Translations under genes and position numbers: made by a program
Shown here: piece by piece, positions 26,987 to 31,663 of the stretch
How the letters are laid out: the number at the start of each line of letters is the position of its first letter
Position numbering within the stretch: position 1 is the stretch's first letter
The notes under the pieces: model-generated
Database searches by the model: none
Seen by the model: the letters and a program-made list of their open reading frames with translations, nothing else
Told to the model about the DNA's origin: nothing
Virus record (IMG/VR): IMGVR_UViG_3300008625_000045
Location: 1 to 31,663 of that record
DNA from: a virus
Strand: one strand, 5' to 3'
Length of the DNA stretch: 31,663 bases

Positions 26987-27014
26987 AAAAATTCTGGGGG
27001 TCTTGTTGACCCCC
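26987..27014 (-). terminator. Intrinsic terminator / attenuator
   Basis: Minus strand: GGGGGTC-AACAA-GACCCCC, then AGAATTTTT. It is 9 nt below the stop of the 64-residue gene. The T run begins four bases after the stem, so termination may be incomplete and supply the downstream genes, which lack their own promoter. Confidence 0.7.
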
Positions 27015-27023
27015 TTAGTGTGT

Positions 27024-27218
27024 TTAACTGAAATCAACTACGTTAAAGGTTTTACCATTCAAGATGATGGTCTTGACAACCCTCATCTTATTACGTTCAA
27101 CTGAACGACCAGAGTCAAACATTGACTCACCAGACTCAAAGAATCTGTTACTTCCATCATGACCCTCAAAAGTCTTTTTGACCTTTGCGGTAACTGTTGT
27201 GGTGTTTACTTCTCCCAT
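27024..27218 (-). CDS. Hypothetical early protein (64 aa)
   Basis: A small basic protein, MGEVNTTTVTAKVKKTFEGH then DGSNRFFESGESMFDSGRSV, ending ILNGKTFNVVDFS. The alternating pattern at both ends suggests a beta structure with a flexible middle; no family is recognised. An AAGGAAC ribosome-binding site precedes the ATG. It is the first gene after promoter P7, with a leader that begins in a perfect hairpin (27245..27263), and is followed by a terminator. Confidence 0.65.
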   Translation of the reverse strand: MGEVNTTTVTAKVKKTFEGHDGSNRFFESGESMFDSGRSVERNKMRVVKTIILNGKTFNVVDFS

Positions 27219-27244
27219 TAGTTCCTTTCGGTAGGAGGGTTAAA

Positions 27245-27263
27245 AGAGAGGAATATCCTCTCT
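27245..27263 (-). promoter_or_regulatory. 5' leader hairpin below P7
   Basis: Minus strand: AGAGAGGA-TAT-TCCTCTCT followed by TTTT, starting within about 10 nt of the expected transcription start. It may stabilise the RNA end, or be a weak early terminator. Confidence 0.55.
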
Positions 27264-27277
27264 CAGTTTCTAATTAT

Positions 27278-27306
27278 ATTGTATGTCATTTCCCTCAAGA
27301 TGTCAA
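27278..27306 (-). promoter_or_regulatory. Sigma70-type promoter P7
   Basis: Minus strand: TTGACA, 17 nt, TACAAT. The TGA stop of the 82-residue gene lies within TTGACA. The usual AAAAGAC is replaced by TTTTGTC. It drives the 64-residue gene and, by read-through, probably the 37- and 128-residue genes. Confidence 0.75.
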
Positions 27307-27551
27307 GACAAAAATGCATTGGATTTAATGTGTTCTATCTTGTCATGAAGGGACAGCTTCTCGCCACTCTCAAGGCACTCAAAAGCTGCATTGTTTTCCA
27401 GAAGTGAAATCTTTCTCACCAGATCCCACTTCAACTTGCGAGCGGCATCCAGATCCTCTTCCAGAACAGCAATCCTAGAAGCAACATCTACCAAATCATC
27501 ATTTGCCATTTCTAACATGATGTCACGTTTACCACGATTATAATCGTCCAT
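27303..27551 (-). CDS. Coiled-coil early protein (82 aa)
   Basis: ATG 27551 (MDDYNRGKRDIMLEMANDDL) is chosen because GGAGA lies 4 nt upstream; the longer frame upstream overlaps a better small gene. Residues 20-60 are a coiled coil (VASRIAVLEEDLDAARKLKW, DLVRKISLLENNAAF), and the end is ESGEKLSLHDKIEHIKSNAF. The last codons run into promoter P7. It is linked to the 44-residue acidic gene by a 1-nt gap. Function is unknown. Confidence 0.6.
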   Translation of the reverse strand: MDDYNRGKRDIMLEMANDDLVDVASRIAVLEEDLDAARKLKWDLVRKISLLENNAAFECLESGEKLSLHDKIEHIKSNAFLS

Positions 27552-27552
27552 A

Positions 27553-27687
27553 TTATCTCCATCCATCTCTTGCCATATCGGCAAGTTCGATACGGGCTTC
27601 TTCTTCAGCCTCAAGTTCATCAATGAAAGCGATGATTTCCTCATCACTCATTTCCTCACCAATCCAACCCATAAGATCAATATCCAT
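27553..27687 (-). CDS. Small acidic protein (44 aa)
   Basis: A 44-codon frame with a strong AGGAGA, 5 nt above the ATG. The product MDIDLMGWIGEEMSDEEIIA then FIDELEAEEEARIELADMAR is very acidic (over one third Asp/Glu) and helical. Its TAA is one base above the next ATG. Very acidic small phage proteins include DNA mimics and inhibitors of host enzymes; I have no evidence for a target here. It lies in an operon running from P6 through four genes. Confidence 0.65.
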   Translation of the reverse strand: MDIDLMGWIGEEMSDEEIIAFIDELEAEEEARIELADMARDGWR

Positions 27688-27697
27688 TTTTGTCTCC

Positions 27698-27907
27698 TTA
27701 TTTGACAACTACGATTTCACCATTAAACACATTGACTTCAAAGTGATTCATAACCAAATCCTCATCTGTCCAGCGATCACTCTTATCAGCGATCCTGAAA
27801 GCAAGTTCTCTTGCCCACTCTAGACCCTCATCAAGAGTCTCAAAACTCTCACGATGATTGAAGGAACCAAGTCCCTTCTCTTTTGTCTTAACTTCTGATA
27901 TCCACAT
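27698..27907 (-). CDS. Hypothetical early protein (69 aa)
   Basis: Product MWISEVKTKEKGLGSFNHRE, SFETLDEGLEWARELAFRIA, then WTDEDLVMNHFEVNVFNGEI. The strand-helix-strand layout (WISEV...S..TLDEGLEWARELA..I) recalls very small alpha/beta phage proteins, but no family is recognised. Its ATG overlaps the TAA of the coiled-coil gene upstream (TAATG), with GGAGA nearby, so the P6 operon is translated as a chain. Confidence 0.65.
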   Translation of the reverse strand: MWISEVKTKEKGLGSFNHRESFETLDEGLEWARELAFRIADKSDRWTDEDLVMNHFEVNVFNGEIVVVK

Positions 27908-28080
27908 TATACAGTCTCCATAGGAATGGTTAATTCGTCATAAGTATAACAACTATCCTCATAACATTCTTTATATCTGTCTCTTTCTCTAGTTACTCTT
28001 TCAAGTTCTTCTCTTAACTCTACAACCTCAACTCTAAGGGTTGCACACTCATCAATTAACTCTTCTCTTGTTACGGACAT
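27907..28080 (-). CDS. Small coiled-coil protein (57 aa)
   Basis: The first gene after P6: CGGAGA lies 6 nt above the ATG. The product MSVTREELIDECATLRVEVV then ELREELERVTRERDRYKECY is one continuous coiled coil, ending EDSCYTYDELTIPMETV. It is probably a dimerising accessory protein. The stop overlaps the following start. No family is recognised. Confidence 0.7.
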   Translation of the reverse strand: MSVTREELIDECATLRVEVVELREELERVTRERDRYKECYEDSCYTYDELTIPMETV

Positions 28081-28085
28081 TTTGT

Positions 28086-28158
28086 TCTCCGAAAAAGGGT
28101 TTCTCTTAACTGTTCACTTATATTATACCAAATTTGAACCAGATGTCAAGTCTTTTTT
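28086..28158 (-). repeat. Promoter-leader direct repeat, copy 1
   Basis: About 72 bp covering leader (TCTCCGAAAAAGGG on plus), -10, spacer, -35 and A tract of P6. It matches 28515..28586 with one substitution (in the -10) and one single-base gap. A duplicated promoter cassette, 429 bp apart, same orientation. Confidence 0.92.
28122..28149 (-). promoter_or_regulatory. Sigma70-type promoter P6
   Basis: Minus strand: TTGACA, 16 nt, TATAAT, preceded by AAAAAAGAC. It lies directly after the stop of the 116-residue gene (28158) and drives the chain of four small genes down to 27303. Confidence 0.85.
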
Positions 28159-28508
28159 CACATACCATATTCAGACCAGTAATGTTTCTTCTCTCTTGAA
28201 TAGACATTATGTTTCTTGATTTTCCATTTCACAATCATGGGCTCTCCGTGGTCATCTTCATCAATAAGAACATGGACTACAGTTTTCAGAACCCTTGCCA
28301 TACGAAAACCTCTGTCCATTTTCCAACGAGAAGTTACCCAGACACGATGAACAAACTTATCCTTCAGACCATAATCTGCATACGCTACCCAATCATCTTC
28401 CTTGGCTTCTGAATATTCAAAAAATTGACCAGTTTCTTTAGATTCAAAGGAACCAATAATTGAGCTGTCTCCTACATTAAAATAAGTACTAGAATCAGCA
28501 AATGCCAT
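28158..28508 (-). CDS. Hypothetical early protein (116 aa)
   Basis: A beta-rich, aromatic protein (STYFNVGDSSIIGSFESKET, GQFFEYSEAKEDDWVAYADY, KFVHRVWVTSRWKMDRGFRM, LKTVVHVLIDEDDHGEPMIV) ending KKHNVYSREKKHYWSEYGM. No family or catalytic motif is recognised. It has its own promoter P5 and a GGAGA ribosome-binding site, and its stop is followed within a few bases by the A tract of P6, so it appears to be a single-gene cassette. Confidence 0.68.
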   Translation of the reverse strand: MAFADSSTYFNVGDSSIIGSFESKETGQFFEYSEAKEDDWVAYADYGLKDKFVHRVWVTSRWKMDRGFRMARVLKTVVHVLIDEDDHGEPMIVKWKIKKHNVYSREKKHYWSEYGM

Positions 28509-28514
28509 ATTTAA

Positions 28515-28586
28515 TCTCCAAAAAGGGTTTCTCTTAACTGTTCACTTATAGTATACCAAATTTGAACCAGATGTCAAGTCTTTTTT
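28515..28586 (-). repeat. Promoter-leader direct repeat, copy 2
   Basis: Second copy of the cassette at 28086..28158, covering P5 and its leader. The single substitution changes the -10 from TATAAT to TATACT, so the two copies may differ in strength. Confidence 0.92.
28550..28577 (-). promoter_or_regulatory. Sigma70-type promoter P5
   Basis: Minus strand: TTGACA, 16 nt, TATACT, preceded by AAAAAAAAGAC. It lies immediately after the TAA of the 61-residue gene (28587) and drives the 116-residue gene. Confidence 0.82.
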
Positions 28587-28772
28587 TTAACCAATCTCCT
28601 CAGAGGTGATATAAACGACATACCGATCTGACTTTTCTCGCCATGTTCCAGCCACACCTTCTAAAATTTCAATAGAAGGGGTTGCAAATTCAAACATACA
28701 AACTCTTCTTTCCGAAAGGGATTTAGTCCAATCGGCGTCAAACACACGCAATACGAAATACATATCCTTCAT
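28587..28772 (-). CDS. Hypothetical early protein (61 aa)
   Basis: Product MKDMYFVLRVFDADWTKSLS, ERRVCMFEFATPSIEILEGV, ending YVVYITSEEIG: three predicted strands with a short helix. It is the last gene of the three-gene P4 operon, TAATG-coupled to its neighbour, with AGAGGA upstream. Function is unknown. Confidence 0.62.
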   Translation of the reverse strand: MKDMYFVLRVFDADWTKSLSERRVCMFEFATPSIEILEGVAGTWREKSDRYVVYITSEEIG

Positions 28773-28954
28773 TAGAATTCCTCTCTAAGGCGGGTTTTAA
28801 TATATTCAATAGCCGAGGTGAGACTGTTCATTCTCTCAACCCACTCCGACTCATGGGTGAAGAAACCAACTGCACCAGCAAGTTTCATTTTTCTGATTCT
28901 CAGATCACCCAACTCACTTCTCAAACTGATTTCTAATTCTGTCATTTCTTTCAT
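28772..28954 (-). CDS. Small helical protein (60 aa)
   Basis: Product MKEMTELEISLRSELGDLRI then RKMKLAGAVGFFTHESEWVE ending SAIEYIKTRLREEF. Two helices joined by GAVGFF; heptad spacing suggests a helical hairpin or dimer. It is coupled at both ends through TAATG. No family is recognised. The second Met (residue 4) is an alternative start, but the coupled ATG is preferred. Confidence 0.62.
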   Translation of the reverse strand: MKEMTELEISLRSELGDLRIRKMKLAGAVGFFTHESEWVERMNSLTSAIEYIKTRLREEF

Positions 28955-29172
28955 TAGAACATACTCCCTCTAGAGGTTAAAGACCAATTATCCAGATCAT
29001 TTGCTTCTCGCAGATCAGAATACTCACACCACTCACAGGCTCCATCGACTTCATAGTGAACCATGTAATCGTGGAGTCCATCTCCGTTAAATGAACGCTT
29101 TGTCACTTCACCAACCAGATCATTCAAGGCATGAACCACAACCATGTCACCTATTTCCCATTTTCTTTCCAT
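28954..29172 (-). CDS. Hypothetical protein, possible SH3-like fold (72 aa)
   Basis: Product MERKWEIGDMVVVHALNDLV, GEVTKRSFNGDGLHDYMVHY, EVDGACEWCEYSDLREANDL. The order W.IGD.V.V......GEV......D.Y.VHYE-DG..EW-EYSDLREA looks like a Tudor/KOW-type small barrel, found in nucleic-acid or protein-binding modules; this is a pattern judgement. First gene of the P4 operon, with CGGAG before the ATG. Confidence 0.65.
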   Translation of the reverse strand: MERKWEIGDMVVVHALNDLVGEVTKRSFNGDGLHDYMVHYEVDGACEWCEYSDLREANDLDNWSLTSRGSMF

Positions 29173-29214
29173 TTTCGATCTCCGAAAGGGTTATCTCTCT
29201 CACTCAACAATTAT

Positions 29215-29243
29215 ATTATACGTTATTTTGGGGTCATTGTCAA
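29215..29243 (-). promoter_or_regulatory. Sigma70-type promoter P4
   Basis: Minus strand: TTGACA, 17 nt, TATAAT, with a nine-A tract and GTTC upstream. The stop TGA of the 61-residue coiled-coil gene is the TGA of TTGACA. It drives the 72-60-61 residue operon. Confidence 0.85.
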
Positions 29244-29425
29244 GAACTTTTTTTTTCTTCTTCTCTTTTTTTCCAGAAATATTCCATGCAGTCATCCCAG
29301 CCTCTATCGTACTCCTTCTTGAGTGCCACTTGGATTTGTGCAGAAATCATCTCTGCCACATTCTCTCTCAGAGAGCTCACTTCTTTTCTCAGATCCTCTA
29401 CAGAATCTTGGTATGCAATACTCAT
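29240..29425 (-). CDS. Coiled-coil early protein (61 aa)
   Basis: Product MSIAYQDSVEDLRKEVSSLR, ENVAEMISAQIQVALKKEYD, RGWDDCMEYFWKKREEEKKS. Residues 8-45 are a coiled coil; the end is Lys/Glu-rich and coded by the A-rich tract of promoter P4. The ATG overlaps the preceding stop (ATGA), with AAAGGAAG upstream, so it is coupled to the OB-fold-like gene. Confidence 0.65.
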   Translation of the reverse strand: MSIAYQDSVEDLRKEVSSLRENVAEMISAQIQVALKKEYDRGWDDCMEYFWKKREEEKKSS

Positions 29426-29811
29426 GTTTTACTTCCTTTGTTATACAGAATTTTGACATGGGAAATTCGGGTCTGATTCTCTCCACCCCATTGCCCATAT
29501 TTTGCAATGCGACCTTTGACCTTGATGCAGTCTCCAACAGCCACTTCTTCCATCTTGACAGGAGTGTTCTTGACAGTCCCATAGAAGGTCACTACATTCC
29601 CATCCCTGTCCACCAGAGTATGCAGGGAGTAGTCACGAAAGTCTCGACTCTCGACCAGTTTCACAAAGATCTCAACTGGAGTCCCAATGCGAGCTTCTCC
29701 ATTGGTCAGGTGCTTGGACTTTGGGGCCACAATATGATCAACATTCTTTTCCAACGCCATGATTTCCTTTTTCAAACAATGATTATATTTTGGGTCTTGG
29801 GGATCTTTCAC
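29422..29811 (-). CDS. OB-fold-like protein (129 aa)
   Basis: Residues about 45-120 (TPVEIFVKLVESRDFRDYSL, HTLVDRDGNVVTFYGTVKNT, VGDCIKVKGRIAKYGQWGGE, NQTRISHVKI) follow the strand order of an OB fold: V.L.D.dGN.VTFYG ... V.VGD.I.VKGRI.KYG...G..QT.IS.VKI. Such domains usually bind single-stranded nucleic acid; similar segments occur in phage replication-associated proteins. Two starts are possible: GTG at 29811 with AGGAG 5 nt upstream, or ATG at 29760 (MALEKNVDHI) with AAAGGA. I list the longer because it leaves a short gap to the gene above. Transcription comes from P3. Confidence 0.68.
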   Translation of the reverse strand: MKDPQDPKYNHCLKKEIMALEKNVDHIVAPKSKHLTNGEARIGTPVEIFVKLVESRDFRDYSLHTLVDRDGNVVTFYGTVKNTPVKMEEVAVGDCIKVKGRIAKYGQWGGENQTRISHVKILYNKGSKT

Positions 29812-29841
29812 ACAGTCTCCTCACTTTTCACAAAGGGTTTT

Positions 29842-30351
29842 CTAGAACCCCAGAACTTCTTCACATTCCTTCCAGAATCCCAGAAAGGATACTAACAATC
29901 CTTTCTCCATTCCGTATGCACGAACCTCATAGGGTAACTTAAAGTATTCCACCAGAGTCTCCGCTTCGTAGTTCACACCTTTCCACATCAACCCAGAATC
30001 TCTCCAAGTCAACTCACCAGAAACGTAGTCACTCACATGAACCAGTTCATGACACAGGGTCTTGAGGACATCGTGTGCCCACTCAGTTTCACCCTTCTCT
30101 CGTCCGTATTCATCAAGAGTCAAACGATGATGGTCAATGATAACATCGAACTCTCTAGGACGATACCTATTGGTCCATTCAGAGATCTTGGCTTCACCCT
30201 CTGCGGCATGGTGCCTCAGATGAAGGTTAATTCTCAGGTTATCTCTCATACGTTTAGAGACACCCAATTCACTCAGAGTATGTTCGACACAAACCTTGAG
30301 TCCCATACGAAACTTTGAATCAATATTTCTAGCGTGAAGTTTAATTTCCAT
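29842..30351 (-). CDS. SprT-like zinc metalloprotein (HELVH)
   Basis: The product has the gluzincin motif HELVHVSDY at residues 101-109, with a candidate third ligand Glu142 in LPYEVRAYG, and DVIIDHHRLTL before it. This arrangement is that of SprT-like/minigluzincin proteins common in phages. The catalytic Glu102 is present, so a peptidase is likely, but substrates are not known. AGGAGA lies 4 nt above the ATG, after promoter P3 with a palindromic spacer. The OB-fold-like and coiled-coil genes follow in the same transcript, so a role in DNA metabolism or host takeover is possible but unproven. Confidence 0.78.
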   Translation of the reverse strand: MEIKLHARNIDSKFRMGLKVCVEHTLSELGVSKRMRDNLRINLHLRHHAAEGEAKISEWTNRYRPREFDVIIDHHRLTLDEYGREKGETEWAHDVLKTLCHELVHVSDYVSGELTWRDSGLMWKGVNYEAETLVEYFKLPYEVRAYGMEKGLLVSFLGFWKECEEVLGF

Positions 30352-30382
30352 TGAGTCTCCTCTTTTTTAACCTTTCACTTAT

Positions 30383-30410
30383 ATTATACCACATGGGAGT
30401 CCCATGTCAA
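30383..30410 (-). promoter_or_regulatory. Sigma70-type promoter P3
   Basis: Minus strand: TTGACA, 16 nt, TATAAT, preceded by AAAAGAC. It drives the SprT-like, OB-like and coiled-coil genes. The spacer is a perfect palindrome (see 30391..30407). Confidence 0.85.
30391..30407. promoter_or_regulatory. Palindrome in the P3 spacer, candidate operator
   Basis: ACATGGGA-G-TCCCATGT, a perfect 8+1+8 inverted repeat lying between the -10 and -35 and touching the -35. A dimeric repressor bound here would block polymerase. No other promoter of the set has this sequence. Confidence 0.5.
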
Positions 30411-30420
30411 GTCTTTTATT

Positions 30421-30864
30421 TTAAAAAAATGTAACAGAATATTCGGTAGACTCTCCGTTGCAACGCCACGTTCCTTTGTGGGATGTAGAGATTTTCGTTC
30501 CGACACAGGTGAAATTAGATACTTTCGCAGACCAACTCCACTCTTTCCCGAAGGGGTCAGAAGAGAGCTCTGCGAGTTGCACTCTAGGGTTTGAGAAGGA
30601 AATCACAGGGGGAATGGCCACTTGGTGAATCACTTTGGTTGGCACTGCAACCTCTCTGATTATAACTTCTCGTTTTATAACCTCTTGTTGTATCTTGGTG
30701 ATTATAATAGGGGGTTTCTCTGTGGGAGTTTTGAGGGAACAGGTGGGACACTCGTTATTTACTATTGGGCAGCCTTTGGGGTCATGACAGACCCACTCAG
30801 GAGTCCCTTTGGAAATATTAGGAGTCCCTAAAATTAGTATTAGCAAAAAAATATATAGAAACAT
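30421..30864 (-). CDS. Secreted cysteine-rich protein of unknown function (147 aa)
   Basis: The N-terminus MFLYIFLLILILGTPNISKG is a signal peptide or signal anchor. It is followed by a cysteine-rich stretch (CHDPKGCPIVNNECPTC, residues about 25-42), an extended beta segment (ITKIQQEVIKREVIIREVAV) and a C-terminal domain with two more Cys (NFTCVGTKISTSHKGTWRCN). Seven Cys suggest disulfides outside the cytoplasm. I recognise no family; a periplasmic or cell-envelope role, perhaps lysis or superinfection, is speculation. No clear ribosome-binding site is visible. A TATAAATC box is 9 nt upstream, so it may be a late gene within the early arm. Confidence 0.6.
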   Translation of the reverse strand: MFLYIFLLILILGTPNISKGTPEWVCHDPKGCPIVNNECPTCSLKTPTEKPPIIITKIQQEVIKREVIIREVAVPTKVIHQVAIPPVISFSNPRVQLAELSSDPFGKEWSWSAKVSNFTCVGTKISTSHKGTWRCNGESTEYSVTFF

Positions 30865-31489
30865 TATTATTGGATTTATAGATTAGATTTCCGATCAGCT
30901 TTTTAAATAAGGACACTAACAAAGCCCCAAAGGGACTCAGAGATACTCGGTTTCCCTCATGCACCTCTGAGGTAACTGAGAGAGGCTTGTTCCCTCTCAC
31001 GAGTCTCCCCACTTGTCTTTCATCGCCGTGCCAACCAGCCGTACTGCATCCGAACTCACAGGGGCAATTACATCGGGTCTTAGCCACTCCGAATACCCTC
31101 TCGGAACTCCACAGGGCACTAGCGGGAAGGGTGGGAGCATAACCCCTTCCTATTGTCGTTTGGTCATCCTAGATCATTGGCAAATCATGGGTGTGTGGTT
31201 CAGGTCCGACCTTTTCATTGGGGGTTCACTTTACAGACCAAGTGTTGTATTGTGTGGGCTGTGGCTCTTGCTTCACTGGTAGTATCAAAAGAGGGACTAC
31301 ACCCACACTATGAGCACTGAAGGGGTCCAAGGACTGTCCAACTTCGGGTTTCCTCCCCCTTACTCACTCTAAAATCAGGCGTGTTGATCAGTCTCACCAC
31401 TAAGGGCTACACCACGCATCTGACTTACTCAGAGTGTCTTCAGTGTCTTCATTGACACAGGGGAATTTCTCTTCCCTCACTCTCACATT
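30865..31489 (-). ncRNA. Gene-free, hairpin-rich leader region (candidate non-coding RNA)
   Basis: Over 600 nt below promoters P1 and P2 lack a convincing protein gene on the minus strand. The sequence is visibly richer in G+C than its surroundings and contains several self-complementary blocks: GTGTGGG (near 31306) with CCCACAC (near 31255), enclosing GTAGT...ACTAC; GGAAGGG...CCCTTCC (near 31145 and 31125); TGAGAG...CTCTCA (near 30990 and 30975); CTCAGAG...CTCTGAG (near 30970 and 30935). A tandem GAAGACACT repeat lies near 31440. I call it a candidate RNA on structure and promoter position alone; an unrecognised small gene (GTG 31087) is the alternative. Confidence 0.35.
30873..30880 (-). 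promoter_or_regulatory. Imperfect late promoter (TATAAATC)
   Basis: One mismatch from T4 TATAAATA, 8 nt above the ATG of the secreted protein. The short distance would leave almost no leader. Weak evidence. Confidence 0.3.
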
Positions 31490-31492
31490 TAT

Positions 31493-31521
31493 ATTGTCTC
31501 AAATTTTGTCTACATTGTCAA
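31493..31521 (-). promoter_or_regulatory. Sigma70-type promoter P2
   Basis: Minus strand: TTGACA, 17 nt, GACAAT, preceded by AAAAAAAGAC. The -10 is weaker than in the other sites, but the whole block parallels P1, including TGAGACAAT. It points into the gene-free region. Confidence 0.65.
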
Positions 31522-31539
31522 GTCTTTTTTTCAGGTTTG

Positions 31540-31597
31540 TTTGGGTTCTCGTCCAATCGTATCCAGACTCTAACTGGTGTACCGACCCTGACCCAAA
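31540..31597 (-). repeat. Stem-loop between P1 and P2
   Basis: Minus strand: TTTGGGT (31591-31597) pairs with ACCCAAA (31540-31546), enclosing 44 nt with an inner CCAG-TTAGAGT-CTGG hairpin. No start codon with a usable frame lies in this 100-nt interval, so P1 RNA begins with this structure. It is too short and lacks the T arm for a tRNA. Confidence 0.45.
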
Positions 31598-31621
31598 GTC
31601 ACTCTCTCATCTTACATATAC

Positions 31622-31650
31622 ATTGTCTCACATCTGGAGTGAATTGTCAA
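31622..31650 (-). promoter_or_regulatory. Sigma70-type promoter P1
   Basis: Minus strand: TTGACA, 17 nt, GACAAT, preceded by AAAAGAC, at the right edge of the window. It is 129 bp upstream of P2 with similar -10 context (TGAGACAATRTA), a tandem pair. Confidence 0.65.
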
Positions 31651-31663
31651 GTCTTTTCTTTAG

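Follow-up and report, generated by a model that had tools for sequence, protein, structure and literature searches.

A probable trans-acting structured noncoding RNA with a conserved core in uncultured, apparently marine T4-like phages

In the window, the whole 31,663-nucleotide stretch of viral DNA analysed here, a region of the minus strand is very probably the gene of a structured noncoding RNA that acts in trans. A preliminary description had called this region the candidate gene of an undescribed RNA. The structure is borne out by covariation in 21 distinct relatives, whose compensatory changes are far above controls, whereas the claim of novelty holds only in part, as a 41-nt hairpin of the type A relatives is Rfam family RF03092. 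The distinct core sequences, also 21 in number, come from about two dozen contigs of uncultured, apparently T4-like phages, and the carriers as a group are apparently marine myoviruses. Trans action is the reading we favor because the neighboring genes change between groups of relatives, and the RNA is best read, from its sequence and predicted fold, as a new family among the structured noncoding RNAs of phages. Such RNAs are few in lytic phages and their functions are mostly open. The present family offers strongly supported helices, upstream promoters and two architectures in which a common core can be told apart from exchangeable parts, which gives a direct basis for designing experiments by probing, knock-out and pull-down.

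Locus and relatives

The two tandem promoters said to point into the gene-poor stretch are both present (Table 1), and both sit in a 54-nt direct repeat whose copies share 78% identity. The region is also GC-richer, as had been noted, with a G+C content of 0.504 at 31001–31500 against mostly 0.35–0.42 (about 0.38) in the rest of the window. The interval originally outlined, 30865–31489, does hold a real RNA region, but better bounds run on the minus strand from 31486 to about 30900, the low end being undefined because a clear intrinsic terminator was not found after the RNA in the window. Across the family, each of the 20 members examined has a sigma-70-like promoter with at least 10 of 12 matches ahead of the core, at a distance of 28–316 nt, and the type A and type B core family combines this upstream promoter with the lack of a conserved open reading frame (ORF).

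Table 1 Features of the RNA locus in the window
Feature	Position	Strand	Description
Upstream promoter	31622–31650	−	TTGACA-17-GACAAT, 10/12 matches
Proximal promoter	31493–31521	−	TTGACA-17-GACAAT, 10/12 matches; estimated transcription start near 31486
5′ hairpin A	31461–31476	−	GGGAA(GAGAAA)UUCCC; conserved with covariation in L082, L088, L089 and L107
5′ hairpin B	31443–31458	−	GUGUC(AAUGAA)GACAC; covariation, five sequences
Variable 5′ domain	31170–31438	−	Some 270 nt, including the GTGTGGG/CCCACAC hairpin (31252–31308); present, not part of the covarying structure
Conserved core	30976–31169	−	Covariance model R1, 134.6 bits, E = 2.5e-38 (model includes the window sequence)
H1	31125–31150	−	Hairpin GGAAGGG...CCCUUCC; strong covariation
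Pseudoknot PK1	31134–31137 with 31107–31110	−	H1 loop CUCC with GGAG; paired in 16/16 sequences of A1, window included
Compound stem, 5′ side	31111–31124	−	CGC (H2ext), UA, GUGCC (H2), CUGU (H3)
H4 and H5 arm	31049–31106	−	H4 UUCCGA/UUCGGA; H5 31073–31092 with heptaloop GGCUAAG at 31079–31085
Compound stem, 3′ side	31024–31047	−	GCAG (H3), bulge UACGGCUGGUU (31033–31043), GGCAC (H2), G, GCG (H2ext)
H6	30980–30998	−	Ocean-VII-type hairpin GAGAGGGAACAAGCCUCUC; paired in 16/16 sequences of A1, four covarying pairs
89-aa ORF	30818–31087	−	ORF list
89-aa ORF	31013–31282	+	ORF list

At gathering (curated) thresholds, Rfam has no match in the window. A relaxed-threshold cmscan places Ocean-VII (RF03092) on the minus strand at the position of H6 (21.8 bits, E = 7e-4 for the stretch); this match spans model positions 19–37 only and lies below the gathering score of 53.5, and the hairpin there carries the conserved Ocean-VII loop GGGAACAAGCC. 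Relatives were sought in viral contigs with an Ocean-VII-hairpin pattern in which stem positions were free, and then with patterns for the core and the 5′ element. These patterns were derived from known members, so that retrieval was not unbiased. A subset of the Ocean-VII-pattern matches proved to have a much longer stretch in common in their flanks. In all, the searches returned 17 type A contigs (L015, L018, L034, L037, L044, L046, L053, L062, L065 and L074–L081), five type B contigs (L082, L088, L089, L107 and L132) and a second contig of the window's own phage (L056/L073/L102). By the core model, each searched record that has the core has one copy of it. L107 was retrieved by its 5′ element only; when the core model was applied to it, a core emerged further downstream (43.5 bits, E = 2.5e-12). 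As a prediction test, this is the cleanest test of the family.

Beyond these contigs, blastn searches of 50,697 phage records, with the region and the cores of members as queries, gave no match, and the core model had no significant match in eight isolates (Mosig, HTVC008M, Melnitz-3, S-PM2, Cr30, BUCT-ZZ01, S-CAM3 and S-RIM44). In prokaryote genome contigs, one Desulfovibrio match to a short pattern was rejected, having no core model match, and the GC-rich contigs retrieved by pattern (L083–L087, L090, L115–L131 and L133–L152) are unrelated both by reading and by the core model. As for the carriers, proteins of the window match T4-like baseplate wedge and hub families, members of 134 kb and 117 kb encode a T4-like DNA polymerase, and the 134-kb member also has sheath and portal proteins. 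By one structural protein, the closest sequenced isolates are Kyanoviridae of Pelagibacter and Methylophilales, at 32–39% identity.

Architecture and covariation of the RNA

From 5′ to 3′, the core consists of H1, a compound stem (H2ext/H2/H3) with H4 and H5 inside it and, in type A and the window, H6. The window core is closest to that of L062 (76% identity over 192 nt, E = 4e-27). The bulge ACGGCYGAU is conserved on the 3′ strand of the compound stem, and the hallmark of the family, H2 and H3 with compensatory variation around the bulge ACGGCYG.U, is found in the window as GUGCC/GGCAC and CUGU/GCAG with ACGGCUGGU. The heptaloop is GACUAAG in 15 relatives and GGCUAAG in the window (consensus GRCUAAG), where the register of H5 was assigned by eye. 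In type B members, a short hairpin with the loop AAUGAU takes the place of the H4/H5 arm, and H6 is absent. The H1 loop can pair with AGAG or GGAG after H3, forming PK1, in which a single pair covaries; type B RNAs do not show PK1 clearly.

Directly after the promoter, the window and type B have 5′ hairpins A and B in common. All ten pairs of these hairpins are kept in five sequences and three are changed on both sides, hairpin B having the stems GUGUC/GACAC, CUGUC/GACAG, UUGUC/GACAA and GUGAC/GUCAC. With its type-B-like 5′ end and type-A-like core, the window thus bridges the two types.

The covariation case is carried by helix-level tests. In A1, a plain MAFFT alignment of 16 sequences, 36 pairs in seven helices have 96.1% of their cells paired, compared with 84.4 ± 0.9% after shuffling and at most 48.6% when the structure is slid along the alignment, and 20 of the 36 pairs are changed on both sides. 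In type B taken alone, with five sequences, 20 pairs are 100% paired, nine of them changed on both sides, and 0 of 500 shuffles are as good. The nine pairs of H2 and H3 are formed at every position in 20/20 sequences, with up to three pair types; the alignment of 20 sequences was anchored on motifs, which favors structure somewhat, and the plain A1 result agrees with it. Variants of H2 include GUCAC/GUGAC, GUGAC/GUCAC, the window's GUGCC/GGCAC and GUCUC/GAGAC, and an H2ext pair (alignment columns 50–153) covaries, being G-C in 15 sequences and C-G in five. RNAalifold, which predicts its own structure, scores −33.5, whereas 100 alignments simulated on the inferred tree score −0.6 ± 1.2. The top covarying column pair among 16,781 is an H4 pair. 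Tested against a simulated null, only two column pairs are without a null exceedance, because 20 sequences are few. G-U pairs within the helices point to RNA rather than DNA as the conserved molecule.

Folding energy tells a different story. The region is no more stable than its shuffles (z = −0.26 on the sense strand and −0.84 on the antisense strand), and single cores give weak, mixed values (z = +0.18 to −2.4). The preliminary description had proposed that such a result, together with a missing transcript, would speak against an RNA. The energy test is blind to the window's RNA because the energy-optimal fold misses most of the consensus pairs: the minimum-energy fold of the window core recovers 6 of 34, compared with 33–37 of 38–39 in several relatives. 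Folding energy no better than that of shuffled sequence is the wrong refutation test here, and applied alone it would have discarded a real RNA. The label ‘hairpin-rich’ is correct insofar as the GTGTGGG/CCCACAC pair enclosing GTAGT/ACTAC exists in the variable 5′ domain, but hairpins in the region are not above chance by energy, and an inverted-repeat search reported no pair within it. The covarying structure lies mostly in the 3′ third, the conserved core, away from this hairpin.

Known RNAs, alternative readings and possible function

The core, the type B RNAs and the 5′ hairpins have no counterpart in Rfam 15, which catalogs only the 41-nt H6 hairpin. The resemblance to Ocean-VII lies in this hairpin and its flank, UGAGUAUCAGGGAUCAGA...CAGAC, and eight type A loci pass the RF03092 gathering score over all 41 positions (67.8–69.4 bits). 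Rfam models 41 nt, whereas the core alone measures ~190 nt in the unit described here and is joined by 5′ and 3′ domains; the Rfam entry covers just the margin of a far larger RNA. No text on Ocean-VII turned up in the set of papers searched, and an earlier description may exist elsewhere. Among noncoding RNAs of T4-like phages are the small stable RNAs C and D of the T4 tRNA cluster; the core described here is larger and structurally conserved, features by which, rather than by sequence comparison, we set it apart. The manA and wcaG motifs are structured RNAs of marine T4-like cyanophages that have been proposed as cis-regulatory elements (PMC2864571); the present RNA likewise comes from T4-like phages that are apparently marine, but does not match them in Rfam.

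GOLLD and ROOL are intricate phage-encoded RNAs that self-assemble into large homo-oligomers, and they have a conserved core with pseudoknots, a variable remainder and a frequent location near tRNAs (PMC12286853). An RNA working in the same way could account for several features of the family: it is encoded by phages, its 3′ core is conserved and likely has a pseudoknot, its 5′ part varies, and several member contigs carry tRNA genes. We nevertheless consider self-assembly of this kind improbable. Neither the window nor the members match GOLLD or ROOL by sequence or Rfam model, the core is smaller, at only about 100–200 nt, and there is no tRNA on the window or in L102–L104.

Also improbable is a cis-acting leader, such as a riboswitch, an attenuator or a put-like antitermination element, that controls the downstream genes. 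Such a leader would fit the window, where a same-strand gene follows just downstream without a clear terminator in between and the two short 5′ hairpins resemble nascent-RNA elements. Across the family, however, the downstream genes vary, with at least three different gene sets among groups: the L044 group has a zinc-protease-like family there, and the L018 and L037 groups have others. Moreover, about nine type A members have terminator-like hairpins with T runs after the RNA.

A ribozyme or a replication-priming transcript is a very unlikely reading. The invariant bulge and loops would suit a ribozyme, and the arrangement of a promoter ahead of a structured transcript is reminiscent of origin primers, but no Rfam ribozyme matches, and in the contigs of 134 kb and 117 kb GC skew has the same sign on both sides of the RNA, on which ground a replication origin there was rejected. 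Last, a protein-coding or decayed region with hairpins arising by chance can be dismissed for practical purposes: the longest internal ORFs (89 aa, one per strand; Table 1) and the shuffle-like folding energy would allow it, but the view that no convincing gene lies here stands, as there is no conserved reading frame in 16 homologous cores, every one of which has stops in five of six frames, with the sixth open in the window only, and the compensatory changes already contradict such a region.

For a trans-acting RNA, the promoters and conserved modules suggest a sequence of events. Early transcription from host sigma-70-type promoters is plausible, and immediate-early timing would follow because the promoters are of host type. 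Host RNA polymerase could transcribe the RNA right after infection, and the transcript would then accumulate as a folded RNA. Its conserved unpaired modules, namely the ACGGCYGAU bulge, the GRCUAAG heptaloop, the hairpin with loop GGGAACAAGCC and the AAUGAN hexaloops, could serve as docking sites for a partner. This would most probably be a protein or ribonucleoprotein of the host, sequestered or redirected by the phage. We favor this decoy or docking step, but only tentatively. More speculatively, the family could represent a new class of phage noncoding RNA, made from host-type promoters as soon as infection begins, in which a fixed core is combined with swappable peripheral domains, as seen in the two types and in the window that bridges them, and which takes over a host machine through the bulge and loops; the ribosome, RNA polymerase, an RNase or a defense system would be candidates, but we regard this broader proposal as doubtful.

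Neighboring genes and transcription units

Several features of the surrounding sequence deserve mention in their own right. A 169-aa protein encoded on the minus strand of the window (29842–30351) has the motif HELVH, an SprT-like zinc-protease signature; it has no Pfam match and belongs to PHROGs families without assigned function, and in the L044 group its homologs are encoded after the RNA. The 147-aa protein that adjoins the RNA has a relative only in its own phage, so synteny through that protein was uninformative.

Within the RNA region itself, neither ARAGORN nor RF00005 reports a tRNA or tmRNA. Downstream of the RNA in L053, at about 1031–1081, is a terminator-like hairpin, GCCCCTAGCTCAGTAGTAG...CTAGATCCTCTAG...TATGGGGCTTTTT, that recurs in L044, L065, L075, L076, L080 and L081 and resembles a tRNA that has acceptor and D-arm-like sequence but lacks the T arm. 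In L082 (from about 1000) and L132, the RNA is directly followed by a second promoter-led intergenic unit, which ends in a long stem capped by the tRNA T-arm-like sequence GGTTCGACTCC. This stem has compensatory differences between the two phages, and no tRNA or tmRNA is called there.

The part of the window at 27000–31663 contains 23 sigma-70-like promoters where 9.4 ± 3.1 would be expected, and many of them have the extended motif AAAGACTTGACA; they precede small ORFs, in the manner of an early-gene block with host-type promoters. In L102, from the window's own phage, a third tandem promoter and a run of TACTAGGGTGAC 12-mers lie upstream of the RNA, beyond the right end of the window. L037, L074, L077 and L079 have two or three consensus promoters, about 85–200 nt apart, upstream of the RNA, and the short noncoding stretch after each promoter may yield further small transcripts. 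Finally, type B RNAs have two AAUGAN hexaloops on short stems, one in 5′ hairpin B and one at the H4 position, perhaps a repeated protein-binding site.
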